The position numbers and the translations under genes were made by a program. A DNA stretch of 64,000 nt from Halococcus qingdaonensis (GTDB taxonomy: Archaea; Halobacteriota; Halobacteria; Halobacteriales; Halococcaceae): NCBI RefSeq assembly GCF_024508235.1, contig NZ_CP101943.1:2515112-2579111 (forward strand), in the 5' to 3' direction. The notes below the pieces were generated by a model. That model ran no database searches. It had not been told where the DNA came from and worked only from the letters and a program-made list of their open reading frames with translations. Positions 46,618 to 61,131 of this stretch are shown here, piece by piece (within the stretch, counting starts at the first letter, position 1; each line of letters starts with the position of its first letter).

Positions 46618-46926
46618 ATGACAGACTTCGTCTCGGTGGCGACGACCGACGAACTTGACGACGGCGAGGGAACCGTCGTCGAAACGAACGGCCACACGAT
46701 CGCACTCTTCAGAGTCGAGGGCGATTTTTACGCCATCGGCAACGAGTGTACGCATGAGGGTGGACCGCTCGGAGAGGGGGACCTCGATGGAACGACCGTC
46801 ACCTGTCCGTGGCATGGCGCACGGTTCGACGTCACCTCCGGCAAGGTGCTCGAACCGCCCGCCGACGATTCGGAACCGGAATACGAGGTCCACATCGACG
46901 GTGATACGGTTCGCGTCGGTGTTTGA
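46618..46926 (+). CDS. Rieske 2Fe-2S ferredoxin
   Basis: A 102-aa protein with both Rieske motifs, CTHEGGPLGEG (CxH) and CPWHGARFDV (CxxH). Small soluble electron carrier of dioxygenase/NirD type. Occurs between LtrA and the TauE exporter; could serve an oxygenase in the region. Confidence 0.9.
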   Translation: MTDFVSVATTDELDDGEGTVVETNGHTIALFRVEGDFYAIGNECTHEGGPLGEGDLDGTTVTCPWHGARFDVTSGKVLEPPADDSEPEYEVHIDGDTVRVGV

Positions 46927-47017
46927 GCCGCCCGGAGAACTCCTTAGAGACGCTTTCTCTTCAGCCAACGCTCGCAGCCTCCATTCGCAACGGTAGTGCT
47001 CGCTCGACAGTCGCTCC

Positions 47018-47797
47018 TCAGACCCCGACACTGGTAGAGATGAGCCGAATCCCGATAATGGCCAGCAAGACCAACACGAATTCGTCGATGTACCGATCCG
47101 GCAGCAGGTGGCGAACCCGTCGGCCGCTCTCCACACCGACCAGCCCGACGAGTGCCGCTCCAACCGAAAGCCACACGAGCGCTCCTGTGCCGTAGAGATC
47201 GAATGCCCATGCCGCGCCGACGCGGATCGACGAAATACCGAGGAAGATCAACGCGAGAACTCCCACGAAGATCGACCGCTGGAGATCGAGGCTATCGAGA
47301 TAGGCGACCATCGAGACGCCGACGTTACTCGCTCCGAAGATCAGCCCGCTTCCGAAGCCGATCCCGAGTTGGGCGTTCGGGTGTCGTTCGAAGTAGTTCG
47401 ACGTGACGTATCCCTTGCCGGGGACTGGAACCGTATCCTGCGTGAACGCGACGTACCCCAACGTAAACACACCGAGTGCGAACGTCAGTATCGTCGTCGG
47501 AATCCACTGGAGTATCGCCATTCCGACGATGGTTCCAACGGCAGCCGCCACGATGAACGACGCAAACCGACGCCCGCAGGTCCGTAATCGGTCACGGTCG
47601 AGCTCACGTACGAGAGGGACGTTCGAAACAAACACCGGGATGATCATGAGGACGACGGCCTGCTGTGGACCGAGAACGGCCGCCGACCCGACGGTTCCGA
47701 TGAGTGCATAGCCGAATCCAGTGATGCCGGTCACGGTTCCGGCGAAGAACACGATGATCGCAATGAGAACGAGGACGTCCACCGAAAAGCCAACCAT
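47018..47797 (-). CDS. TauE/SafE family exporter (DUF81)
   Basis: A 259-aa membrane protein with about eight TMs in two repeats: FFAGTVTGITGFGYALIGTV and FGSGLIFGASNVGVSMVAYL show the family GxxxGxxxG-type repeats. Family members export sulfite, sulfonates or organosulfur anions. Substrate unknown. Confidence 0.85.
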   Translation of the reverse strand: MVGFSVDVLVLIAIIVFFAGTVTGITGFGYALIGTVGSAAVLGPQQAVVLMIIPVFVSNVPLVRELDRDRLRTCGRRFASFIVAAAVGTIVGMAILQWIPTTILTFALGVFTLGYVAFTQDTVPVPGKGYVTSNYFERHPNAQLGIGFGSGLIFGASNVGVSMVAYLDSLDLQRSIFVGVLALIFLGISSIRVGAAWAFDLYGTGALVWLSVGAALVGLVGVESGRRVRHLLPDRYIDEFVLVLLAIIGIRLISTSVGV

Positions 47798-47914
47798 CTC
47801 GCTACGAACCTCCTACCCGGGCGTTCTCCAATCTATCATAACGTTTCGCGCAGTCGTGGCCGACTGTGCAACCTGACTGACCAAGACGTTCCAAGCACTG
47901 ATTTGTCAGTTCAG

Positions 47915-48589
47915 TCACCGATTGGATCCTTCCTCGCTCGAAAAGCCGATCTCTGCGTGCGTTCCATCGCAGAACGGTTTGGTCCCCGAAGCGCCACAGC
48001 GGCACAGAGCGGCATCGCTGTCCCGGACCGTCGAGTCGTCGTCCGTCCCGTGGAGTTCGAACGCGCCGTCGAGGAGGACTGGTCCATCCGGTTTCGGGAC
48101 CACCTGCAGCGTGCCTCCATCGTCTACGTCTTCAGCTCCCTCGTGGTCTTTCGGTATCGAACTATCGGCCTCGAAGTCGGCCTCCACGTGACTGTTGTCA
48201 CAGAGTGGTTTGTTATCCGACAGTCCACAGCGACACAGCGCGACCCGTGTGTCCGCGAGCAGCGTTTCGTCGTTGGGTGTCGTGACCTCGATGTCACCGT
48301 GGAGATAGAGCGGTCCATCGGGTGCCACTGTGACCGAGTTCTCGTCCGGGATGGTTTCCGTGGGACCATCGTCCGTTCGCTCGAAATGGAGTGCACCGGT
48401 GGGACATGCCGTGATGACATCCGCTAGCTCGTCGGCGTCGGCGTTGTCAGGGTCGATCCATGGCCGCTTGTCGGGGTCGAACACCTCGGGCAGCCCACGG
48501 ACGCACTCTCTGACGTGAATGCACCGCTCGACGTCGTAGCTAACCTCGATCTCCTCGCCGGAATATTGGTGAATGTCTTCTTCCATCAT
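47915..48589 (-). CDS. divergent ferredoxin plus two CDGSH iron-sulfur domains
   Basis: A 224-aa protein. N-terminal (4Fe-4S mono-cluster binding) domain with CIHVRECVRGLPEVFDPDKR and ITACPTGAL; then two CDGSH-type 2Fe-2S motifs, CRCGLSDNKPLCDNSH and CRCGASGTKPFCDGTH. Probably an electron or Fe-S carrier. The three-domain architecture is known in prokaryotes. About 290 bp of AT-rich, gene-free DNA lies upstream to 48882. Confidence 0.9.
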   Translation of the reverse strand: MMEEDIHQYSGEEIEVSYDVERCIHVRECVRGLPEVFDPDKRPWIDPDNADADELADVITACPTGALHFERTDDGPTETIPDENSVTVAPDGPLYLHGDIEVTTPNDETLLADTRVALCRCGLSDNKPLCDNSHVEADFEADSSIPKDHEGAEDVDDGGTLQVVPKPDGPVLLDGAFELHGTDDDSTVRDSDAALCRCGASGTKPFCDGTHAEIGFSSEEGSNR

Positions 48590-48882: not shown

Positions 48883-49851
48883 ATGTCGCCGACAACACCG
48901 GGGCTTCATCACGTGACCGCCATTGCGAGCGATCCGCAACGCACCGCCGAGTTCTACGTCGAAACACTCGGTCTGCGCTTCGTCAAGAAGACCGTCAACC
49001 ATGACGACAAGTACACCTATCACCTCTATTTCGGCGACAGCGAAGGCACGCCCGGGACGAACATCACGCTCTTCCCGTGGGGCGAGCGCGGTCGTTCGGG
49101 ACAGTTCGGCGACGGACAGACCCGAACGACGGCATATTTCGTTCCCGACGGCTCGCTCGATTACTGGCGCGAGCGACTGGAATCGCACGGTATCTCGGTC
49201 GATGGCCCGACCGAACGGTTCGGCGAGACCGTCATCGAATTCGACGATCCGGACGGCATCACGCTCGCACTCGTCGCCACGGACGATGCACCGGACGGAC
49301 AGCCGTGGGATGATAGCCCGGTTCCCACAGAGCACCAGTTGCGCGGCTTTCACAGCGTCACCCTCGCGGTTAGCGAAATCGATCCAACCGCCACGGTGCT
49401 AACTGACGGGCTTGGGTACGAATTCGAAGTCGAAGAGAACGGTCGTCACCGCTATCGCTCCGACGCTGGCGGCGGCCCGGGCTCTATCATCGATCTCGTC
49501 GAAACCGATCATGGACGGGGACGAATGGGCGTCGGCACGGTCCACCACGTCGCCTACAAGGCCGAGGATACGGACGAACAGGAGCAGTGGCGCGAGCAAC
49601 TGAGCGAACAGGGGCTTCGCGTCACCGACATCGTCGACCGGGTGTACTTCAAGTCGATCTACTTCCGCGAACCGGGCGGCGTCCTGTTCGAGATCGCCAC
49701 GATGGAACCCGGCTTCACTGCCGATCAGAGCCAGGACGAACTCGGCAGAGACCTCGCGCTACCGGAGTGGTTAGAGAACGAACGCGACGAAATCGAATCG
49801 CGGCTTCCGTCGTTCGAGAGTCCATCCGTCGACCCCGATTCCGACCGATAA
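48883..49851 (+). CDS. ring-cleaving dioxygenase, MhqO/LinE-like (VOC fold)
   Basis: A 322-aa two-domain vicinal-oxygen-chelate protein: GLHHVTAIASDPQRTAEFYV, HSVTLAVSE, VHHVAYKAEDTDEQEQWREQ, and YFREPGGVLFEIATMEPGFT with the Fe-ligand Glu. Bacterial MhqO enzymes open hydroquinone rings under quinone stress. A TATA-like GATATAAGT at 48848-48856 suggests a leaderless transcript, and GACAT-A-ATGTC spans the start. A deleted relic of a second copy is at 55541. Confidence 0.87.
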   Translation: MSPTTPGLHHVTAIASDPQRTAEFYVETLGLRFVKKTVNHDDKYTYHLYFGDSEGTPGTNITLFPWGERGRSGQFGDGQTRTTAYFVPDGSLDYWRERLESHGISVDGPTERFGETVIEFDDPDGITLALVATDDAPDGQPWDDSPVPTEHQLRGFHSVTLAVSEIDPTATVLTDGLGYEFEVEENGRHRYRSDAGGGPGSIIDLVETDHGRGRMGVGTVHHVAYKAEDTDEQEQWREQLSEQGLRVTDIVDRVYFKSIYFREPGGVLFEIATMEPGFTADQSQDELGRDLALPEWLENERDEIESRLPSFESPSVDPDSDR

Positions 49852-49963: not shown

Positions 49964-50833
49964 TCACTTGTGCCACTCGTGATTTTGAAGATACGTGGCG
50001 AGCGAGTGGAACTGGTGGTCGAACTCCGTTTCGAGTGCGTCGATATCGGCCGTGTATCCCTTCTCGTTGAACCATTCGTACATCGTGACGAGGTCTTCCG
50101 GGAGCCGTTCTCGGGCCTCGTCGAGCGGAACGTGAGTTGCCTCGACGTCGGTATCGAGCACGTCCGTGAACGTCGCAGCCATGCTTTCGAGCGTCTGCTC
50201 GTCACTAGCGATTTCGATGGTCTCACCGACGTATTCGTCCGGCGTTGCGAAGACATGGGCTGCCACCGCACCGTAGTCGGAGACGTCGAGCAGCTGCAAG
50301 CTCACTCCCTCGTTCAGGGGGAGCGCGAGCCTTCCGTTCTGGATGTCTTCGCGGTTCCCCTCGAGATTCCCCATGAAATAGACCGGGCGAAGGATCGTCG
50401 CAGGGAGGTCGAGATCGGCGATTCGCTGTTCGACGCGATACTTCGAGACGAAGTGTTCGACTGCCTCGGTACGGTCGGCTCCGCCGACCGAGCTGTAGAC
50501 GAAGTGGTCGATGTCGCTCTCGGCGGCGACTTCGGCGATGTTCGTGCCTTGCTCGATTTCGCCCTCGAAGCCGGCGATGAAGTAGTTCGTGACGGCGAAC
50601 ACTGCATTGACGTCCTCGACCGCAGTCCGAAGACTCTCCTTGTCACCGAGATCGCCCTCGACGACCGTGACACCGCGGTCCGCGAGTGCTTGGGCCTTCT
50701 CACTCGACGCATCACGAGTCAATCCACGAACAGCGAATTCGTCCTCCGTATCGTCGTTCGCTGCAAGTAGTTGATCGACGACTGCGCCTCCCTGATTGCC
50801 GGTTGCACCGACGACGAGAACAGTTGTGGACAT
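49964..50833 (-). CDS. NmrA-like NAD(P)-binding protein
   Basis: A 289-aa atypical SDR: TTVLVVGATGNQGGAVVDQL, VEGDLGDKESLRTAVEDVNA, AAESDIDHFVYSSVGGADRT, and LRPVYFMGN. NmrA/HSCARG/QOR2-like proteins sense NADPH or reduce quinones. The setting beside a quinone-cleaving enzyme favours a redox role, unproven. About 170 bp without genes follow before 51009. Confidence 0.85.
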   Translation of the reverse strand: MSTTVLVVGATGNQGGAVVDQLLAANDDTEDEFAVRGLTRDASSEKAQALADRGVTVVEGDLGDKESLRTAVEDVNAVFAVTNYFIAGFEGEIEQGTNIAEVAAESDIDHFVYSSVGGADRTEAVEHFVSKYRVEQRIADLDLPATILRPVYFMGNLEGNREDIQNGRLALPLNEGVSLQLLDVSDYGAVAAHVFATPDEYVGETIEIASDEQTLESMAATFTDVLDTDVEATHVPLDEARERLPEDLVTMYEWFNEKGYTADIDALETEFDHQFHSLATYLQNHEWHK

Positions 50834-51008
50834 GAGTGGTGGGTAGTGACGACGGGTTCTGTGCCCGTTCGTTCGTGGTCCGTACGTGGACTGCCAACGC
50901 CTTTGTTGTACTGGTTAACCGAAGGGAATCAGATGACACGCCTGATACCAGGTTCCGCGGTTGTCAGTCTCATCTTTTTATAGGGCGAGGGCGTGGTGTG
51001 AACCAACG

Positions 51009-52058
51009 ATGCTCTACGATCACTTCGCCGACCTCGAACTCCGAGTCGACGAGTACGACCTCGAACAGCACGAGCGGGACACGTCGAGTGGTTTCACCCG
51101 GACGACGACCGTCGTCTCGTTGCACGGCGACGGCGAAACCGGGCAGGGCGAGGATGTCACCTACGACAACGAGGCCCACTACACGCTTGACGATTCGCCC
51201 GAGGAATTCCCCGTCACGGGCGAATACACCCTCGACGAGTTCTCGGACCAGCTCTCCGAGGTCGATCTCTTCCTCGGGAACGAGCCGAACCAATCGATCT
51301 TCCGGAACTATCGGCGGTGGGCGTTCGAGAGTGCCGCGCTCGACCTCGCGTTGAAGCAGGCGGGAACGGACCTCGCCGACCGACTCGACCGCGAGTATAG
51401 TCCTGTGCGATTCGTCGTGAGCACGCGGCTTCAGGACCCACCGACGGGCGACCGCATCCGCGACTGGCTCGATCGCAACCCCGACCTCGAATTCAAACTC
51501 GACCCGACCTCGGACTGGACTGCCGAAGTCGTCGACCGATTGGCCGACACCGATTCGGTTCGTGCGCTCGACCTCAAAGGTCAGTACCATGGAACGACAG
51601 TGGACCAGCCCGCCGATCCCGACCTCTACGAACGGGTCGTCGAGGGCTTTCCGGATGCGCTCGTCGAGGACCCGGAACTGAACGACGACACGCGACCGCT
51701 ATTCGACGGCCACGAGGAGCGCGTGACGTGGGACTACCCGATTCGGAGCGTCGAGACCGTCGAAGATCTCCCGTGGGAACCCGAGTGGCTCAACATCAAG
51801 CCCTCGCGGTTCGGCTCCGTCGAATCGCTGCTCGATACGATCGATTACTGCCGGGAGAACGACATCGGAATGTTCGGTGGCGGTCAGTTCGAACTCGACG
51901 TCGGGCGCGAGCACATCCATGCGGTCGCATCACTGTTCTATCCGGACGCGCCGAACGACGTCGCACCGAAGGAGTACAACGCCCCCGAGCCAAGTAGCGG
52001 TCTTCCATCGAGTCCGCTTTCGCCACCGACGTCCTCACAGGGGCTCGAGTGGAAGTAA
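51009..52058 (+). CDS. enolase-superfamily-like protein
   Basis: A 349-aa protein. The N-terminal capping-like part has TTTVVSLHGDGETGQGEDVT and a helical AFESAALDLALKQAGTDLAD; barrel strands include LEFKLDPTS, VRALDLKGQY, DALVEDPEL, LNIKPSRFGSVESLLDTIDY and GGGQFELDVGREH. These resemble the mandelate-racemase/OSBS groups, but the usual KxK is KLD and metal ligands are not obvious, so activity is uncertain. First gene of a likely operon with Fe-ADH and BKACE. Confidence 0.7.
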   Translation: MLYDHFADLELRVDEYDLEQHERDTSSGFTRTTTVVSLHGDGETGQGEDVTYDNEAHYTLDDSPEEFPVTGEYTLDEFSDQLSEVDLFLGNEPNQSIFRNYRRWAFESAALDLALKQAGTDLADRLDREYSPVRFVVSTRLQDPPTGDRIRDWLDRNPDLEFKLDPTSDWTAEVVDRLADTDSVRALDLKGQYHGTTVDQPADPDLYERVVEGFPDALVEDPELNDDTRPLFDGHEERVTWDYPIRSVETVEDLPWEPEWLNIKPSRFGSVESLLDTIDYCRENDIGMFGGGQFELDVGREHIHAVASLFYPDAPNDVAPKEYNAPEPSSGLPSSPLSPPTSSQGLEWK

Positions 52059-52072
52059 ATGGGAATCGACGA

Positions 52073-53269
52073 ATGAGCCAGTACGATCGATTTCGATTCG
52101 AGTACCGTTCAGGTGTCCTCAAGTACGGAACGGGTTGTGTCGGAGAGCTTTCGGAGGAGCTAGAAAGGCAGGGGTTTCGGAGCGGACTCGTCGTCAGCGG
52201 ATCGACTGTTGGAGCTACAGCAGAAGTAATCGATCCGGTAATCGATGGACTTGATGAAGAACTGGCGGGCGTGTTCGCCGAGACAACACCTGAAAAACGA
52301 CTCGAAACCGCCTACAAGGGCCTCGAAGCGATGGAAGACAACGATGCTGATGTCCTCGTTAGCCTCGGTGGCGGCAGCAGTCTCGATGTCGCCAAGGTCA
52401 TTAGTGTCCTCGCTGCGGACGACCGCGATCCAACGGTCGTTGGTCAGGAACTCGCTGAGACCGGATCGATTTCTATACCGTCCGGTTCGCTACCACCCAT
52501 CGTTGCCGTTCCCACCACGTTGGCCGGTGCCGACCAATCTATCGTGGCAGGCGTGACCGCCACGCCGAAATCCGGACTCAACGAGGCTGTGAGTGGCGGG
52601 ATCTCCGATCCACGACTGATGCCGCGAGCGATCTTCTACGATCCTGCACTGTTCGCCACCACGCCGAAGCGGATTCTCGCCGCGTCTGCTATGAACGGGT
52701 TCGACAAAGGACTCGAAACGATCTATGCTCGAAACGCGACGCCAATAACGGATGCGACGGCCGCTCAGGGGCTCAGTCTGCTCGAAGGTAGTCTCAAAGA
52801 GCTCGGAGAACAGTCTATCTCCGAGGAAGTTCTCGAACCGATCGTCGAAGGACTACTGCTCGTCCAGTACGGCATTTCGAGACGTGACGGAACAACACTC
52901 TCGATTATCCATGCGTTCGGGCACGGGCTAACCCGTACCTACGATGTCCAGCAAGGAGCTGCACACGGTATCGTTGCACCACACGTGCTCAGCTACCTCT
53001 TCGAGAATGCCGATGGACGACGCGAGCTACTCGCGGAGGCACTCGTCGGTGACGGTTCAGCGGCCGCCGAGGAAATCGTCGAGTCCGTGGAACGAATTCG
53101 CGATGCACTGGATCTTCTGTCACGGCTCAGGGATGTCGATGGGCCGGAGCCGTCTGCATTCCCCGACGTGGCTGAATCGATACTCACGGACTCGTTCATG
53201 GAGAACAGACCACGCGATTTCGATCCGACAGTAAGCGATATCGAAGAAGTACTACGGGATGCGTATTAA
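52073..53269 (+). CDS. iron-containing alcohol dehydrogenase family protein
   Basis: A 398-aa protein from ATG 52073 (MSQYDRFRFEYRSG). VLVSLGGGSSLDVAKVISVL binds NAD(P); GADQSIVAGVT; metal-site region AMNGFDKGLE and HAFGHGLTRTYDVQQGAAHG. The two later His ligands are present, but the His usually four residues after the Asp is Glu here. Probably oxidises an alcohol or reduces an aldehyde in the pathway of the flanking genes. 14 nt after the enolase-like gene. Confidence 0.83.
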   Translation: MSQYDRFRFEYRSGVLKYGTGCVGELSEELERQGFRSGLVVSGSTVGATAEVIDPVIDGLDEELAGVFAETTPEKRLETAYKGLEAMEDNDADVLVSLGGGSSLDVAKVISVLAADDRDPTVVGQELAETGSISIPSGSLPPIVAVPTTLAGADQSIVAGVTATPKSGLNEAVSGGISDPRLMPRAIFYDPALFATTPKRILAASAMNGFDKGLETIYARNATPITDATAAQGLSLLEGSLKELGEQSISEEVLEPIVEGLLLVQYGISRRDGTTLSIIHAFGHGLTRTYDVQQGAAHGIVAPHVLSYLFENADGRRELLAEALVGDGSAAAEEIVESVERIRDALDLLSRLRDVDGPEPSAFPDVAESILTDSFMENRPRDFDPTVSDIEEVLRDAY

Positions 53270-53316
53270 TTATCGCCTGTATTAACTAAAATATATATAT
53301 ATTCAACGGGAGTAGT

Positions 53317-53610
53317 ATGGGTCGCAAAGAGACAGCCACGCAATCTCATGACGCCATAGTAACCACGTGTCTTCACTGTCCACGAATCGTTTTATTCAGC
53401 ACTACCGAACATCTGCTTGTGACCTGCCCATATCTCGACTACCGCGATGAAGCCGGTGAACGCTCGTTCGACGAGCCGCGCGCGTACTGCACAGCAGCTA
53501 CCACGTTCGTCCAGCCGATGCGCGCCGACATCTGTAACGACCGCTACGATCTCGACCACGAGACCGACTGTGAGATATACCGCGAAGCAGAGGCCGAAAA
53601 TGGGATATGA
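53317..53610 (+). CDS. Cys-rich hypothetical protein
   Basis: A 97-aa protein with about seven Cys, including TTCLHCPRIV, VTCPYLDY, RAYC and ADICNDRYDLDHETDCEIY. The pattern suggests an Fe-S or Zn site. Not recognised. The interval before it has TATA-like ATATATATATA (53292-53302). It overlaps the BKACE gene by 11 nt, so the two probably work together. Confidence 0.72.
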   Translation: MGRKETATQSHDAIVTTCLHCPRIVLFSTTEHLLVTCPYLDYRDEAGERSFDEPRAYCTAATTFVQPMRADICNDRYDLDHETDCEIYREAEAENGI

Positions 53611-54442
53611 GGCGTATCTAAACGGCGAACCCGTCGTCATCACCGCCGCGCTGACCGGCGGCGTTCACGGCAAGGAGGCGAATCCGAACCTTCCGGAAAC
53701 ACCGGAAGAGATCGGGAGCGCAGCCGCCGACGCGGAGTCCGCCGGTGCCGCTATCGTTCACCTCCACGCACGACGAGAAAACGGTGAACGTGCCTTTTCG
53801 ACCGAACGTTTTCAAGCAGTGACGGACGCTGTGCGTGAACGGACCGATGACGTCATCATCCAGCACTCGACCGGCGGGACTGGCGCACCGATCGAACAAC
53901 GGCGGCAGTCGCTCCACACCGATCCGTCACCGGAGATGGCATCGCTCGATATGGGACCGCTGAATCGTTACGACCACCTGACCAGCGAGAACACGCGCGC
54001 AACCATCGACGCACTCTACGACGAAATGGCTGACCGCGGCATCAAGCCGGAACTCGAAGTGTTCAACGATGGTCACCGTAACGAAGTCCACGGACTGCTC
54101 GAGAGACGCGATCTCGACGACCCCGTGTACACGACGCTCATCTTCGGATCGGGAACGCTCACGCGCCCACGCCCACGGAATTTCCTGAATGCCATCGATG
54201 ACCTCCCCGACGGCGCGATGTTCAACACGCTTGGTTTCGGCCCGCATCAGCTTCCCTTTACGACGATGGGGATTCTCTTCGGTGGACACGTCCGTGTCGG
54301 CCTCGAGGACAACGTCTATTACCGACGCGGCGACCTCGCGGAGAGTACTGCACAACTCGTCGGGAGAACCGCAGACATCGCCGGAACCCTCGGTCGGGAG
54401 GTCGCAACGCCGACGCAGGCACGGCGGATCCTCGGCCTCTGA
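53600..54442 (+). CDS. 3-keto-5-aminohexanoate cleavage-type enzyme (BKACE, DUF849)
   Basis: A 280-aa TIM-barrel protein: VVITAALTGGVHGKEANPNL, AAIVHLHARRENGER (HxH Zn ligands), DVIIQHSTGGTG, EVFNDGHRNE, and GHVRVGLEDNVYYRRG. BKACE enzymes condense a beta-keto acid with acetyl-CoA to give acetoacetate plus a CoA ester. Substrate differs among members. ATG 53600 (MGYEAYLNGE) chosen. Confidence 0.88.
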   Translation: MGYEAYLNGEPVVITAALTGGVHGKEANPNLPETPEEIGSAAADAESAGAAIVHLHARRENGERAFSTERFQAVTDAVRERTDDVIIQHSTGGTGAPIEQRRQSLHTDPSPEMASLDMGPLNRYDHLTSENTRATIDALYDEMADRGIKPELEVFNDGHRNEVHGLLERRDLDDPVYTTLIFGSGTLTRPRPRNFLNAIDDLPDGAMFNTLGFGPHQLPFTTMGILFGGHVRVGLEDNVYYRRGDLAESTAQLVGRTADIAGTLGREVATPTQARRILGL

Positions 54443-54459: not shown

Positions 54460-54831
54460 TTAGTCAGATCCCATGTTGTTGGCTGTGGGTTCCTGGACCC
54501 ACTCCTCGGCCCATGCCTCGATTTCGTCGAAGACGGGACAGAGCGATGTCCCTTTCTCTGTCAGCGCGTAGTACGTCGCCACGGGGGCGTCCTCTTCGAG
54601 TCGGCGCGTGATGAACCCCGTCTCTTGAAGATCACTCAGGACGCGTGACAGCGTTCGAGAGCTCGCGTCAGTGGAGCGCTTGAGTTCGTTGAACCGCTTT
54701 TCACCCTCCTGGAGGTCGTGCAGCACGATGAGTCGCCACTGCGACCCGATCTGCTCCAACGAATCGATGACCGAACACGCTCCCTCGTCGTACAGGCCGT
54801 CCACTTCCTTCTGCGCCTTGTTCACTGCCAT
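54460..54831 (-). CDS. HxlR-type winged-helix regulator
   Basis: A 123-aa protein: CSVIDSLEQIGSQWRLIVLH, FNELKRSTDASSRTLSRVLS, and LEEDAPVATYYALTEKGTSL, the HxlR/DUF24 fold. Several relatives (YodB, CatR, HypR) sense quinones or aldehydes through one N-terminal Cys; here Cys19 lies at that position (GACSVI). Divergent from doxX at 55076, with a palindrome between. Confidence 0.88.
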   Translation of the reverse strand: MAVNKAQKEVDGLYDEGACSVIDSLEQIGSQWRLIVLHDLQEGEKRFNELKRSTDASSRTLSRVLSDLQETGFITRRLEEDAPVATYYALTEKGTSLCPVFDEIEAWAEEWVQEPTANNMGSD

Positions 54832-55075: not shown

Positions 55076-55498
55076 ATGGCAATCGATGCTGGACTGGGAG
55101 CCATCGTGTTCCTAATCGCGCGTATTCTCTTCGGTGGACTGTTCATATATCAGGGCCTCAACCACTTCCTGAATACCGATGCGATGGCCGAGTATGCCGA
55201 GTTCAAGAACGTGACCGCGGCGCGATTCGGTGTTCTCGCCTCGGGTGGACTGCTCGTACTCGGCGGACTCGGTATCCTCCTCGGCGTGTATCCAGCAATC
55301 GCCGCAGGACTACTCGTGCTGTTCCTCCTCGTCGTGACACCACAGATGCACGACTTCTGGGCCGTATCAGAGGACCAACAACAAGACGAGATGACGAGCT
55401 TCATCAAGAACGTCGAACTCCTCGCTGCCTCGTTGATCTTCCTCGCTCTCAGCAGTGAGACGTGGGCCTATGCACTGGGCATTGGGCTCGGGCTATAA
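55076..55498 (+). CDS. DoxX family membrane protein (CatD-like context)
   Basis: A 140-aa four-TM DoxX protein: ARILFGGLFIYQGLNHFLNT, VTPQMHDFWAVSEDQQQDEM, FIKNVELLAASLIFLALS. In Bacillus, DoxX-type CatD pairs with a ring-cleaving dioxygenase CatE under HxlR regulators; here the downstream dioxygenase is deleted. Likely quinone/thiol stress protection. Confidence 0.87.
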   Translation: MAIDAGLGAIVFLIARILFGGLFIYQGLNHFLNTDAMAEYAEFKNVTAARFGVLASGGLLVLGGLGILLGVYPAIAAGLLVLFLLVVTPQMHDFWAVSEDQQQDEMTSFIKNVELLAASLIFLALSSETWAYALGIGLGL

Positions 55499-55540: not shown

Positions 55541-55732
55541 ATGAATAACGAAACAAGCGGACTTCACCACGTAGTGTCCATCGAAACCAACAAACCGGGC
55601 TTCACTTGTGACAAATCATTTACAATACTGGGAACAAGGCTAAGGCTTTCGTCACGGTTAGAGAGTGGACAAGGTATGTTCGAACAGCACCTTCCCGAGA
55701 TCGAATCAGCTCGCATACCGGAGGCACACTAA
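55541..55732 (+). pseudogene. internally deleted ring-cleaving dioxygenase
   Basis: A 63-codon frame beginning MNNETSGLHHVVSIETNKPG and ending FEQHLPEIESARIPEAH. The first 11 residues match the start of the 322-aa dioxygenase at 48883 (TTPGLHHV), and the rest matches its end (EIATMEPGFTADQS and EWLENERDEIESRLPSFES). About 240 central residues, including both metal sites, are missing. Still in frame, with possible small point changes. Confidence 0.78.
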
Positions 55733-55733
55733 C

Positions 55734-56384
55734 GTGACTGGACCCCATCAAAACCAACCCCTCGTGACGGCCGGCGTGTCCTTGGAGGCTGCCGAGGCCG
55801 CTGTCGTTCTCGTTCACGGCCGCGGAGCGACCGCTCGGAGTATCGTCCAGATGACCGATGAGTTCGATCACGACGATATCGCGTATCTCGCCCCACAAGC
55901 CGCCCGCAACACGTGGTATCCGAACGCGTTTACCGCACCCGTCGAGTCGAACGAACCCGGGCGCACGTCGGGGCTGCAAGCCATCGCTGACGCCGTGAGT
56001 AAAGCCAACGAAGCGGACATTCCAACGGACCGTGTGATGATTCTTGGCTTCTCACAGGGCGCGTGTCTCGCGAGCGAGTTCGTCGGGCGCAACCCAACGC
56101 GTTACGGTGGGCTTGCAGTCTTGAGCGGCGGTCTCATCGGTGAAGACGTCGCCCCCGACGACTACGACGGTGACCTCGCGGACACGTCCGTGTTCCTCGG
56201 CTGTAGCGACGTGGACCCACACATCCCCGAAGAACGAGTCCGTACGACAGCCGATGTCTTCGAACGGATGGACGCCGACGTGACCATGCGTCTCTACGAA
56301 GGAATGAGCCACGGCATCAACGAGGACGAACTTCGTGCGGTGGCCGATCTCCTCGATGGCCTCACTCGGGATGGATCCCAGTGA
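55734..56384 (+). CDS. phospholipase/carboxylesterase-type hydrolase (MhqD-like)
   Basis: A 216-aa alpha/beta hydrolase from GTG 55734: AAVVLVHGRGATARSIVQMT, nucleophile elbow GFSQGA, Asp in SDVDPHIPEERV, His in MSHGIN. MhqD-like esterases often accompany MhqO dioxygenases, matching the relic 2 nt upstream. Substrate unknown. Confidence 0.87.
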   Translation: MTGPHQNQPLVTAGVSLEAAEAAVVLVHGRGATARSIVQMTDEFDHDDIAYLAPQAARNTWYPNAFTAPVESNEPGRTSGLQAIADAVSKANEADIPTDRVMILGFSQGACLASEFVGRNPTRYGGLAVLSGGLIGEDVAPDDYDGDLADTSVFLGCSDVDPHIPEERVRTTADVFERMDADVTMRLYEGMSHGINEDELRAVADLLDGLTRDGSQ

Positions 56385-56440
56385 GAACTGAATGAGAAGA
56401 GATAACCGTCGTTGCTAGTCAGTTGGCAAGCACTGATCAC

Positions 56441-56827
56441 ATGGTTTCACGAGAAGTCGAGGAGTTGATCGCCGACGCGCCTCTGAGTGCCCACCTCGCC
56501 ACCGCAGATGAGAATCGACCACACGTCGCACCCGTCTGGTATGGCTATCGTGACGGCGTGCTGAGCGTGCTCACTGGTGACAAGAAATTGGCCAATATTC
56601 GGTCGAATCCGCGTGTCGCCGTCTCGATCGAAAAACAAGGCGAGCACGGTCCTGAATGGTCGGTTACGCTACTTGGGACCGCCACCGTCATCGAGGATGC
56701 CGAACGAGCGCGGACCGCTCGCGAACGCGTGTTCGGCAAATATCGGGAGTTCGATCCCGAAACCGAGGATGAACGGGGGACGTTGGTCGAAATCGAAGTC
56801 GCCTCGGCGACGAGCGGGCGGTATTGA
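56441..56827 (+). CDS. pyridoxamine 5'-phosphate oxidase family protein (split-barrel flavoprotein)
   Basis: A 128-aa protein, MVSREVEELIADAPLSAHLA, RPHVAPVWYGYRDGVLSVLT, KLANIRSNPRVAVSIE, typical FMN/F420-binding split barrel. ATG 56441 preferred to TTG 56423. Could reduce quinones or nitro compounds; cofactor not determinable. Confidence 0.85.
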   Translation: MVSREVEELIADAPLSAHLATADENRPHVAPVWYGYRDGVLSVLTGDKKLANIRSNPRVAVSIEKQGEHGPEWSVTLLGTATVIEDAERARTARERVFGKYREFDPETEDERGTLVEIEVASATSGRY

Positions 56828-57208
56828 ATCGGGTAGTCGTTCGTCGACCGATCTCGTGTGGATCGTCTATCACGTTGGTTCCTGAGAAATTGCATTTCTC
56901 TGTACCATGCGTTCTAGTTTAAGGCTGTGATCTGTCGCTGTCTGCTGATTGGAGACCACGAAATTACCGACGGTAGAAACCGCTCAACTGCCAGTTTTGC
57001 GCCCCAAACACGCTAATTACGTCTAATTATGCTTCCCCCAACTATCACCGATGAAGATGACGGTGCCGATTCAACCGTCGAAGTAGTATCTGATAGTCTA
57101 GAAAAACCATATGAAGGCTCATCTTCTATTGGTCGTTGTGATGGCGACTACTTCGCTTGGAAAAGCAGACGGAAATCGACAGACGCACCGGATGGAGGCG
57201 GGCGTCTG
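56828..57208. other. gene-free AT-rich interval
   Basis: About 380 bp. The open frame from 57029 continuing into the DoxX gene (acidic then SRRKSTDAPDGGGRL) has no family resemblance and A/T-rich codons. AATTACGTCTAATTATGC near 57015 may be promoter-like. Nothing else seen. Confidence 0.5.
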
Positions 57209-57595
57209 ATGGGAAATTTGACGGATCGTCTCTCGGCTTCGGGCCTTGGACGCGCACTGTTCGGCAGCGTGCTCGCGTTTATGGCGTTCGACAACTTTCG
57301 TGACTTGGAAGGATCGATTGGCTACGCTGACTCGAAGGGTGTTCCAGAACCCGAAACACTTGTGCCGTTTTCGAGTGGAATGTTGCTGTTCGGTGGTCTT
57401 GGTATCGCACTCGGACGATTCAAGCGACTCGCGCCAGGAGCAGTTGTGTCGTGGTTCGTCGCCGTGACGCCACAGATGCACGACTTCTGGAACATGGAGG
57501 ACGATCAGCGCGAGGGCCAGCAGATTCACTTTCTGAAGAATCTCATCATCCTTGGCGGAGCGTTCTATTTCCTCGCCAATGAGAACGAAGACTGA
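57209..57595 (+). CDS. DoxX family membrane protein
   Basis: A 128-aa four-TM protein, MGNLTDRLSASGLGRALFGS, with FRDLEGSIGYADSKGVPEPE and VTPQMHDFWNMEDDQREGQQ. Close paralogue of 7074-7445, more distant from 55076-55498. ATG 57209 gives the family start. Directly followed, in the same frame, by a universal stress protein relic. Confidence 0.87.
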   Translation: MGNLTDRLSASGLGRALFGSVLAFMAFDNFRDLEGSIGYADSKGVPEPETLVPFSSGMLLFGGLGIALGRFKRLAPGAVVSWFVAVTPQMHDFWNMEDDQREGQQIHFLKNLIILGGAFYFLANENED

Positions 57596-57840: not shown

Positions 57841-59916
57841 TCACGAGAGGTCCACCTCACTGAGTCGGCGTGCATTGATGGCGACGATGATCGTCGACAG
57901 CGACATGAGCACTGCACCCACTGCGGGCGAAAGCAGGATGCCAATCGGTGCGAGTACCCCCGCAGCGAGCGGGAGCGCAAAGACGTTGTAGCCGGTTGCC
58001 CACACGAGATTCTCCTGCATCTTTCGGTAGCTTGCCTTCGAGAGGCGCACGAGGCGCATTACGTCGAGCGGGTTGTTCTCGACGAGGATGATGTCGCCCG
58101 ACTCGATGGCGACGTCGGTCCCCGAGCCGATGGCGATACCGACGTCCGCACGGGTCAACGCGGGCGCGTCGTTGACGCCATCGCCGACCATCGCCACCAA
58201 TTTCCCCTCTTCTTGCAACTGTGTGACCATCTGGTCTTTTTCTTCGGGGAGAACCTCCGCGAAGTACTGGTCGATGTCGAGTTCCTTCGAAACCGCGGAC
58301 GCAACGTCCTCGGAATCGCCGGTGATCATTGCCACCTCGATGTCCATATCGTGGAGCGCCCGAATCGTCCGATGGCTCTCCTCGCGGATCACGTCCGCGA
58401 GCGCGAACGCGGCGACCACGTCGGTTTCCTCCCGAACCAGATAGATGACCGTCTGTGCGTTCGCACCGGCTTCTTCGGCGAACGACGTGATGGATTCGGG
58501 CCGCTCGATACCGAACTTTCTGAGGAGGTTCGGTCCGCCGAGATGCACGGTCGTCCCATCCACGGTAGCGCGGACGCCGAGACCACGGAGGTTCTCGAAT
58601 TCTGAGACGACTGGACGGTCGACATCGCGCTCGGCGGCGGCGTTCCGAATGGCGCGGGCGATCATGTGCTCGGAGTCGCCCTCGACGGCAGCGGCCACGC
58701 CGAACGCCCGCTCTTCGTTCCAGTTGTCGGCCGTTTCGACGCCGACGACACCCTGCTCGCCTTTGGTGAGCGTTCCCGTCTTGTCGAACATCACCGTGTC
58801 GAGATTACGGGACTCTTCCATGGCAATGCGGTCGCGGATGAGCATCCCGTTTTGGGCCGCCGTCGAGGTGTTGATGGCGACCACGAGCGGAACGGCTAGC
58901 CCCAGTGCGTGCGGACACGCAATGATGAGCACGGTGACGACGCGTTCGAGCACACCGATATTGAAGCCAGTCGCAACCACCCAGCCGACCAGCGTGATAG
59001 CTGCGACACCCAGCGCGACGTAGAACAGCCAGCCGGCAGCGCGGTCGGCGAGCAGCTGTGTCCGGGACTTCGATTCCTGGGCCTCGTCGACGAGACGCAT
59101 GATTCCCGCCAGTGTCGTGTCGTCACCCGTCGTGGTCACCCGCACACGGAGACTGCCGTCCTGGTTGACCGTCCCGGCGACGACTTCGCTACCGGGTTCC
59201 TTCTCGACCGAGCGAGACTCGCCGGTAATCATCGATTCGTCGACCGACGATTCGCCCTCGGCAACCTCGCCGTCGGCGGGGACGCTCGCACCCGGACGGA
59301 CGAGCACGACGTCGTCCTCGGTCAATTCATCGATCGGAACTTCCTCTGTATCGCCGCCCTCGGTGACGCGCTCCGCGGTGTCGGGCATGAGCTTTGCGAG
59401 TTCATCGAGCGCGCCCGAGGCCTGCCGAACCGAGCGCATCTCCATCCAGTGGCCCAGCAGCATGATATCGATCAGCGTCACCAGCTCCCAGAAAAACGGC
59501 GTCGTGCCCGGCAGGACGAGGCTTGCCAGCGAGTAGACGAACGCGACGGTGATCGCCAGCGAGATGAGCATCATCATGCCCGGCTCGCGATTTTCGAACT
59601 CCGTGCGAGCCATCGAGAGGAACGGTACGCCTCCATACGCGAAGACGACCACCGAGAGAACCGGTGTTATCCATTCGCTGCCGGGGAAGGCAGGCGCGGT
59701 GTAGTTGAAAACGTCCTGGATGAATTCGCTGAAGACGATAACCGGAATGGAGAGAACCAGCGATATCCAGAATCGTCGGCGGAACATCTGTTCGTGGCCA
59801 GAGTGGTCGGTCTGGGTGACGTCATCGCCGCTATCGCCCCGGTGGGCCGGCGGTGTGTCGGTGGTCGCAGGCTCGTTTCCTCGTTCGGCCTCGTCACGTG
59901 TCGAATGTTCGCTCAT
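57841..59916 (-). CDS. copB: CopB-type copper-translocating P-type ATPase
   Basis: A 691-aa P1B ATPase without an N-terminal HMA domain but with a His-containing start ([13 protein letters not shown]). MITGES (A domain), transport motif [15 protein letters not shown] with CPH, phosphorylation [10 protein letters not shown], and [23 protein letters not shown] marks the CopB/IB-3 group, mostly Cu2+ or Cu+ export. It lies downstream of a multicopper oxidase relic in the same direction, suggesting a former copper operon. Confidence 0.92.
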
Positions 59917-60191: not shown

Positions 60192-61131
60192 GGCTCTGTT
60201 GAATCGCCATAAGGCGATGGAATTCACTGTTTCACTGCTCGTTTGATGTTGTAGACGATACACATCAGGGCAATCTCTCGAAACTCACGGAACCAGGTAC
60301 GCGCTCGCACGGCGTAGCCGAGCGAGCGCTTGACGGCCGAATTCACGGTTTCGGTCATCGACCGCTGTGCGTAGAGATCCGCGTCGATTCGGGCGTTATG
60401 GGCGTGGTCGTACGGTGCGCGGATGCAGTGCTTGATGAGCGGGCGGATCTCGAGTTCACGCAGCCGTTCGCGGAGAGCGGTCTTGTCGTAGCCTTTGTCC
60501 GCAGTGAGAGTCCGCAGATCGCCCGCATTCCGGCGGGCGATCTGCTCGCAGAGGTCGGCGTCACTTCCTTTGAGTGTGGTCGAACAGTGAACGTCGAGGA
60601 CGGCTTGGGATTCTGTATCGACGAGTTTCGTGACTTTAAGCGTCTGCACGCGGTAGTTCGTGCGCTGGCAGTAGTGGCGGCTTGCGCGGTCTCGGTCGTA
60701 GAACGTGGCGTCGAGAGCAGCGTGTTTGGACGGATCGTGCAACTGCGCCGACTGGCGCAGTAGCACTCGACAGAGGCTCATCTCGATTCGGTCGAGTGCT
60801 TTACACAACGTCGACGGTGCAGGGAGATCGGCCGCGTCAAGGCCGATCTCCCGGGTTATTTGTGGCATCTCCTTCAGCAGATCGATGGTCATGCGGTAGG
60901 ACGTATCGAGGTAAATCCGGAGACAATGCAGGGAAACGAGGGCGTAATCGGCGAATCCGCCGCCACCGTTCGGGGCGGCGGATTCGCTTCCATCGCCAGT
61001 AACTCTTTGTGCGACCAAGACGCATCGCTCGGTGAAGCGAGAGATTTGGGTCATGGACAACGCAAGTCTCTCGCTTCAATGCCTTTGATCTAGCGACCGA
61101 TCCCGACGCCGTCTAGTGATTCAACAGAGCC
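60192..61131. mobile_element. intact IS5-family-like insertion sequence, 940 bp
   Basis: Terminal inverted repeats GGCTCTGTTGAATC at 60192-60205 and its exact complement at 61118-61131, flanked by 8-bp direct repeats GGTAATTC. One transposase gene fills the element. Complete termini and ORF imply a recent, possibly active copy. It landed in DNA between the multicopper oxidase relic and the IS4-type relic. Confidence 0.95.
60224..61054 (-). CDS. IS5-family-like transposase
   Basis: A 276-aa DDE transposase from ATG 61054 (MTQISRF). Catalytic regions: KHAALDATFYDRD (first Asp), LRTLTADKGYDKTALRERLR (second Asp) and MTETVNSAVKRSLGYAVRAR (Glu), with typical IS5 spacing. It spans nearly the whole IS and shows no internal stop. 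Confidence 0.92.
   Translation of the reverse strand: MTQISRFTERCVLVAQRVTGDGSESAAPNGGGGFADYALVSLHCLRIYLDTSYRMTIDLLKEMPQITREIGLDAADLPAPSTLCKALDRIEMSLCRVLLRQSAQLHDPSKHAALDATFYDRDRASRHYCQRTNYRVQTLKVTKLVDTESQAVLDVHCSTTLKGSDADLCEQIARRNAGDLRTLTADKGYDKTALRERLRELEIRPLIKHCIRAPYDHAHNARIDADLYAQRSMTETVNSAVKRSLGYAVRARTWFREFREIALMCIVYNIKRAVKQ

Follow-up and report, generated by a model that had tools for sequence, protein, structure and literature searches.

Bacterial pairs of a dioxygenase and a hydrolase belong to quinone defence, standing either under MhqR or together with DUF24 regulators, according to PMC6798810, where cleavage of quinone-S-adducts is also attributed to MhqO-type enzymes and a response to quinones to DUF24 regulators. 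Among the beta-keto acid cleavage enzymes (BKACEs), one group has beta-ketoadipate as substrate, as stated in an excerpt of PMC4922564. Here, we describe a locus with likeness to both systems in a 64,000-nucleotide (nt) stretch of DNA from the archaeon Halococcus qingdaonensis (contig NZ_CP101943.1, positions 2,515,112 to 2,579,111), referred to in full length as the window. The locus, ~ 7.5 kb long and located at 48.9-56.4 kb of the window, may encode a haloarchaeal (hydro)quinone ring-cleavage route ending in a BKACE. We assign this reading a probability of about 0.5, and within it we infer the substrate, the order of steps, the role of a small Cys-rich protein and the regulation. An earlier note on this DNA had pointed to four genes, for an enolase-like protein, an iron alcohol dehydrogenase (Fe-ADH)-like protein, the Cys-rich protein and the BKACE, as a possible degradative operon. 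The four plus-strand reading frames are present as described, with gaps of 14 nt and 47 nt and an 11-nt overlap, the third frame spanning 53317-53610. Three of these genes, those for the ADH, the Cys-rich protein and the BKACE, belong to a larger haloarchaeal gene set. The four are flanked by genes that the earlier note had not considered, for an MhqO-like dioxygenase, an MhqD-like hydrolase, DoxX and HxlR, which suggest a more specific pathway.

The conserved core of the cluster consists of the Cys-rich protein and the BKACE. Linkage was counted, among the matches listed, in 146 genomes of the window's order at a match threshold of E 0.001, where G000 denotes the window's own genome, a single 2.70 Mb contig. 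Matches were found to the Cys-rich protein in 55 genomes, the enolase-like protein in 123, the BKACE in 84, the ADH in 102, the dioxygenase in 133 and the hydrolase in 132, all of these counts except the first taking in distant homologues. ADH rows below 40% identity were omitted from the linkage counts, and BKACE rows below 50% identity, other than fragments, were not counted as belonging to the window's subfamily. At 61 of 62 listed places, the Cys gene has a BKACE gene no more than 500 bp away, the lone exception (G041) being a partial match of 28 residues. Fifty of the 61 linked genes are located upstream of the BKACE gene on the same strand, eight downstream on the same strand and three downstream on the opposite strand. 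Conversely, 61 of the 66 listed BKACE places of the window's subfamily are accompanied by a Cys gene; the other five comprise two places with 50-52% identity (G045, G052) and three fragments. Where our own gene caller placed the Cys gene directly before the BKACE gene, the two frames overlap by 4 nt in 15 of 30 loci. A profile search with the Cys-rich family across 84,980 species of bacteria and archaea offers a second view: the best 80 of 100 relatives, referred to as named loci, all carry archaeal titles, and 78 of them have a BKACE match beside the Cys gene, while the other two (L219, L268) have partial BKACE matches. All 19 Cys-rich matches in a 294-genome sample of the phylum came from the window's order.

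The wider gene set accompanies this core less regularly, at rates that still far exceed uniform scatter. In 21 of 60 genomes, a homologue of the ADH, the dioxygenase or the hydrolase is found no farther than 5 kb from the BKACE gene. In a 58-genome subset, 20 genomes spanning six families (f1, f6, f7, f8, f12, f17) are linked in this way; for genes scattered uniformly over genomes of 3.4 Mb, the expectation is 0.16 for the ADH, 0.28 for the dioxygenase and 0.23 for the hydrolase. The ADH is found within 5 kb of the BKACE in 11 of the 38 genomes having both, and the dioxygenase and hydrolase genes are at most 500 bp apart in 56 of 82 genomes. At the named loci, where markers were scored within ~ 4 kb of the BKACE and some loci extend less than 4 kb on one side, the ADH occurs at 22 of 80, the dioxygenase at 26 and the hydrolase at 22; at least one of ADH, dioxygenase, hydrolase and HxlR is present at 41. 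Linkage follows the identity of the BKACE to that of the window, with 37 of 50 loci linked at 70% or above and 2 of 28 below. DoxX appears at only two named loci, from a Haloarculaceae archaeon (L217) and a Salinibaculum sp. (L232). Both carry genes for ADH (reversed), Cys-rich protein, BKACE, HxlR (reversed), DoxX and hydrolase, which is the order of the window apart from the reversed ADH. The earlier note had regarded genes unlinked elsewhere as evidence against its operon. On this measure, the Cys-rich and BKACE genes hold together and the ADH does so in part, whereas the enolase-like gene, found at 0 of the 80 named loci, does not. The grouping of ADH, Cys-rich protein and BKACE is supported.

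The predicted functions of the flanking genes point in the direction of quinones. The two-domain VOC protein resembles MhqO (PDB 3oaj, E 6e-81) and 2,6-dichlorohydroquinone dioxygenase (4huz, 1.1e-56), and H10, H222 and E270 provide the His-His-Glu iron ligands at the positions given in PMC12673573. We predict it to be an MhqO-type ring-cleaving dioxygenase. The hydrolase keeps a GFSQG motif along with a candidate Asp and His. The HxlR protein scores 77.2 bits on PF01638 (gathering score 20.8) and belongs to what we take to be the same family as DUF24, whose quinone-sensing members of the YodB/CatR type presumably use an N-terminal Cys for sensing; Cys19 of the window protein is present in every homologue row covering the position. 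HxlR homologues occur at 13 of the 80 named loci, and 12 of them are close (67-83% identity), all located 3' of the BKACE gene on the opposite strand at a distance of 6 to 1437 nt.

The BKACE scores 281.8 bits on PF05853 (gathering score 24.8). When aligned to Kce (2y7d), it has H54, H56, S90, R232, E236 and D237 at the positions of the metal-binding and catalytic residues of the Kce structure. Val22 sits where Kce, the aminohexanoate enzyme, has a Glu (chain residue 20), presumably the binder of the aminohexanoate ammonium group. An aminohexanoate-cleaving BKACE was considered and rejected on account of this Val and of a score below the equivalog cut-off for 3-keto-5-aminohexanoate cleavage enzyme (NF052387, 257 vs 382 bits).

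The start of the Cys-rich protein is probably GTG 53419, 102 nt inside the open reading frame (ORF) at 53317-53610, giving a product of 63 residues. The ORF reported by the earlier note thus exists, while ATG 53317 is probably not the true start. We favor the GTG because most homologues begin with M-T-C-P, the equivalent of which starts at this codon in the window, and because in the congener G053 ATG 53317 is lost by deletion and a TGA is present upstream, while the GTG is retained. The N-terminal CLHC of the longer ORF would then probably be outside the protein. A TATA-like stretch seen by eye at 53291-53303, directly 5' of ATG 53317, is inside the same deletion. Near-identical, over-long, short and X-containing rows were removed before alignment, and C3, C24, C39 and C51 are invariant in all 48 aligned rows. 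No Pfam or NCBIfam match was found for the protein, and hmmsearch against PDB sequences found no match with an E value under 1.3. The AlphaFold 2 (AF2) model reaches a mean predicted local distance difference test score (pLDDT) of 92.3 and a predicted template modeling score (pTM) of 0.75, with five models spanning 92.3 down to 62.7. Fold comparison with this model returned no firm match (Foldseek best E 2.1; VIA-align best Z 3.8 over 46 residues), which is no proof of a new fold.

In the Fe-ADH-like enzyme, the metal-ligand positions are occupied by Asn208, Lys212, His280 and Gln294, as judged from a 27-row profile (the window ADH and 26 of the 27 ADH references listed) aligned to lactaldehyde reductase and 3jzd. 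All four residues are invariant in the 27 rows. Relative to the Asp-His-His-His site that we take lactaldehyde reductase to have, three of four ligands are replaced, and the protein departs from a metal-dependent Fe-ADH site. The earlier note had seen a Glu in place of the first metal His; this Glu, E215, instead aligns with the Glu of HAxE, and three ligands rather than one are changed. Because most of the metal site is lost, the enzyme is likely metal-independent. Its profile gives 129 bits to 3jzd, level with 130.5 to lactaldehyde reductase. 3jzd bears the maleylacetate reductase signature; the window ADH resembles it in having a PTT-x-AG motif and in carrying Asn at the first of the metal positions.

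Taken together, these features can be arranged into a route. The substrate would be a substituted hydroquinone, derived from a quinone and present as thiol adduct or in a methoxy or halo form, whose ring the MhqO-type Fe(II) dioxygenase would open next to the substituent. Cleavage next to the C-S, C-O or C-Cl carbon would yield maleylacetate as its thioester, ester or acid chloride, from which the MhqD-like hydrolase may strip the acyl substituent (thioester or ester) to leave an unsaturated beta-keto acid of the maleylacetate type. This would be reduced to a beta-ketoadipate-type acid (3-oxoadipate) by the Fe-ADH-like enzyme, which probably works without metal. The BKACE with its four-Cys partner could then transfer the acetyl part to acetyl-CoA, yielding succinyl-CoA (or an analogue) and acetoacetate, with the HxlR protein as the probable quinone-sensing switch. 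Were this route right, haloarchaeal quinone detoxification would feed central metabolism through the BKACE. It offers a concrete, testable pathway for genes of unclear role across dozens of haloarchaeal species and draws attention to a family of small proteins for which the library and structure searches gave no match, and to an Fe-ADH subfamily with replaced metal site. The fullest version is doubtful: a complete salvage of quinone adducts that starts with ring opening and ends in succinyl-CoA and acetoacetate. In this version, the hydrolase would release the adduct thiol, the ADH would represent a new metal-site-replaced Fe-ADH subfamily, and the BKACE would be a two-component enzyme whose second part, a zinc or iron-sulfur protein of 63 residues with four Cys, has no known relatives. 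If true, it would make quinone detoxification and carbon use one pathway.

Several observations weigh against the ring-cleavage route. The hydrolase is far under the NCBIfam cut-off for MhqD (NF047577, 29.6 vs 325 bits), and the BKACE stays below the equivalog cut-off for 3-oxoadipate:acetyl-CoA acetyltransferase (NF053568, 196 vs 350 bits) and scores higher on the aminohexanoate model than on this one. No aldehyde dehydrogenase, which would be needed for an unsubstituted hydroquinone, is present among the 20 window proteins scanned. Maleylacetate reductases are marked by an LHHKLCHTLGG signature and, in PcpE, by essential His172 and Lys238, according to PMC5741723; the window ADH lacks the signature and has Lys212 and Ala281 at the two corresponding positions. 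Therefore, we do not call it a maleylacetate reductase, and a canonical identity of this kind was rejected on the signature residues. The ADH gene is also unsteady. In G053, a deletion of ~ 1.1 kb, equivalent to window 52207-53324, removes most of the gene, from about codon 45 (L122, G053:C6, 9211-9640 compared with window 52059-53610; flanks about 92-95% identical), and a homologue of 60% identity is located elsewhere in that genome. This deletion and the lower third-position guanine-cytosine (GC) fraction of the ADH gene (0.58, vs 0.80 for the enolase-like gene, 0.70 for the BKACE and 0.74 for the dioxygenase, although a second DoxX gene is lower still at 0.55) hint that the gene may have come to this locus later. 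BKACE-hydrolase pairs without a close ADH occur in G041, G097 and G124 (no match) and in G058 (30% identity), and three of these genomes have only modest dioxygenase matches (3.6e-5 in G058; 1e-16 to 1e-17 in G097 and G124). No marker is found at 39 of the 80 named loci, among them 13 of the 50 loci whose BKACE has 70% identity or more. Finally, on a BKACE tree of 79 rows, the label "linked" changes 6 times against a shuffled mean of 26.5. Linked BKACEs hence cluster, pointing at few inherited events instead of many independent ones, and with linkage inherited in one part of the BKACE family, the argument rests on its retention and not on repeated origin.

In another explanation, the Cys-BKACE pair cleaves a different beta-keto acid, e.g., 2-deoxy-3-ketoribonate from a deoxynucleoside sugar, and the Mhq-type genes are neighbors without a common pathway. 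PMC6365646 describes a BKACE with an important role in the use of deoxyribonate by bacteria of three genera, and of the 28 BKACEs with identity below 70%, 26 lack Mhq-type neighbors. In 61 neighborhoods clustered from single-genome gene calls, which remain rough, we recognized by eye cytidine deaminase-like genes in 7, uridine phosphorylase-like genes in 7 and phosphomannomutase-like genes in 6, and the nucleoside-type neighborhoods include those of the congeners G069 and G085. Seven loci with cytidine deaminase-like and uridine phosphorylase-like genes, again named by eye, near Cys-BKACE are L139, L147, L156, L160, L163, L164 and L169. We nevertheless consider this explanation unlikely, as nucleoside genes are seen at only 1 of the 80 named loci, compared with 41 for Mhq-type markers, and as Mhq-type linkage is far in excess of uniform scatter and the gene order is retained in L217 and L232. 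Alternatively, the dioxygenase, hydrolase, DoxX and HxlR might form a quinone-stress island that only detoxifies, with the ADH and BKACE handling a different, co-regulated compound. Consistent with this, the Staphylococcus mhqRED operon serves quinone resistance with a BKACE unmentioned in the cited part of PMC6798810, and several genomes that have a BKACE-hydrolase pair lack the ADH. However, the ADH and dioxygenase genes are no more than 500 bp apart in 9 of 56 genomes, and the two occur together at 18 of the 80 named Cys-BKACE loci; we consider such an island rather improbable.

The route that the earlier note had proposed, in which an enolase-like dehydratase or racemase is followed by alcohol oxidation and beta-keto acid cleavage, draws on the short same-strand gaps in the window and could further appeal to genomes in which the enolase-like gene is near a dioxygenase gene (52 nt in G013; ~ 3.4 kb in G073). 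Nonetheless, we regard it as very improbable. Linkage of the enolase-like gene was evaluated at 134 places, with split pieces in G066 and G043 and one in G127 omitted; four of them have a member of the dioxygenase family within 10 kb and two have a BKACE within that distance, those of G000 and its congener G053. The four-gene operon as a conserved unit was rejected on this ground. With the gene unlinked to the BKACE elsewhere and its family spread over most genomes of the census, its membership in the route is therefore unsupported. The window gene is a paralogue of a widespread haloarchaeal gene, and its linkage to the cluster is a local addition. Other copies have neighborhoods of their own. 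A second copy in G000 (C1:472810-473853; L002, L182), 77% identical and without a BKACE nearby, shares its context with the congeners G061 and G077 and partly with G072 from another family; it is probably the ancestral copy. Twenty loci were fetched for these neighborhoods, L186 and L191 being without an enolase-like call, and the neighbors, which were not scanned against a library, gave no explanation of the family.

As a protein, the enolase-like product has the fold and metal ligands expected of the enolase superfamily, as judged by alignment and model. It has no Pfam match at E 0.001, and its best NCBIfam match, to o-succinylbenzoate synthase (TIGR01928), is weak at 33 bits, below the cut-off of 201. 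The AF2 model (pLDDT 93.1, pTM 0.92) is best matched by N-acylamino acid racemases (2ggg_C; Z 26.8, root-mean-square deviation 3.2, 312 aligned), followed by dipeptide epimerases and muconate-lactonising enzymes (Z 24-26). In a profile alignment to 1wuf, three acidic metal ligands (D188, E220, D242) and K264 align with known positions. The absence of the standard KxK, noticed by the earlier note, is borne out, as K163-x-D165 occupies the place, and all 29 aligned rows carry these two residues. The unusual chemistry that it had suggested for this protein and for the ADH is thereby sustained at the level of residues only. A TATA-like stretch (by eye) is located at 50975-50982, ~ 30 nt 5' of the enolase ATG.

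Features of the locus in the window, with strand and basis of assignment
Feature	Position	Strand	Basis
Two-domain VOC (glyoxalase) protein, predicted MhqO/PcpA-type ring-cleaving dioxygenase	48883..49851	+	PDB 3oaj, 4huz similarity; H10, H222, E270
NmrA-type NAD(P)-binding protein	49964..50833	-	PF05368 197 bits
Enolase-superfamily protein (predicted), K163-x-D165 replacing KxK	51009..52058	+	Profile alignment, AF2 fold
Fe-ADH-superfamily dehydrogenase, N208/K212/Q294 at metal positions	52073..53269	+	PF00465 93 bits
Small four-Cys protein, 63 aa, probable (inferred) GTG start	53419..53610	+	Homologue alignment, congener G053
BKACE (beta-keto acid cleavage enzyme, DUF849)	53600..54442	+	PF05853 282 bits
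HxlR winged-helix regulator, Cys19	54460..54831	-	PF01638 77 bits
DoxX-family membrane protein	55076..55498	+	PF07681 40 bits
Abhydrolase_2 (phospholipase/carboxylesterase), MhqD-like, exact start uncertain	55665..56384	+	PF02230 74 bits

The NmrA-type protein is a possible quinone oxidoreductase; the congener G053 lacks nearly all of its gene, which is therefore not a core part of the cluster. Directly 5' of the dioxygenase gene, window 46618-48589 encodes a Rieske ferredoxin, a TauE-type permease and a CDGSH/Fer4_19 iron-sulfur protein, and the TauE and CDGSH genes retain the same order in G053. On the other side, a PNPOx-like gene (56423-56827) and the second DoxX-family gene (57029-57595) are located 3' of the hydrolase gene. 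A DDE transposase gene (60224-61054) adjoins a P-type ATPase gene (57841-59916).

Among known systems, the enolase-like protein stands closest to the group of N-acylamino acid racemases, o-succinylbenzoate synthases and muconate-lactonising enzymes, with which it appears to share the fold and the residues D188, E220, D242 and K264, differing in K163-x-D165 and in its weak sequence similarity. The hydroquinone/pentachlorophenol pathway of PcpA and PcpE has in common with the locus a VOC p-diol dioxygenase and a reductase of the Fe-ADH superfamily; in contrast to PcpE, the window ADH is without His172, Lys238 and the HHKLCH signature, and the end step here would be that of a BKACE. That BKACE shares the family profile and the Kce-position residues H54, H56, E236, R232 and D237 with Kce and the beta-ketoadipate group. 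It departs from them in Val22, in falling under both equivalog cut-offs and in its nearly constant four-Cys partner. The Firmicutes Mhq cassettes (Staphylococcus mhqRED, Bacillus mhqNOP/mhqED and the mhq operon of Paenibacillus sp. B2) likewise combine an MhqO-type dioxygenase with a neighboring alpha/beta-hydrolase and have a regulator of the quinone-response type nearby. Their regulator is the MarR-type MhqR, whereas that of the window is an HxlR protein (DUF24, as YodB/CatR), and the window, from an archaeal host, adds the ADH, the Cys protein and the BKACE. Among the matches listed from the open-license literature, we recognized no description of an archaeal Mhq-BKACE cluster. Mhq cassettes themselves are known; their combination with a BKACE and its four-Cys partner would be new.

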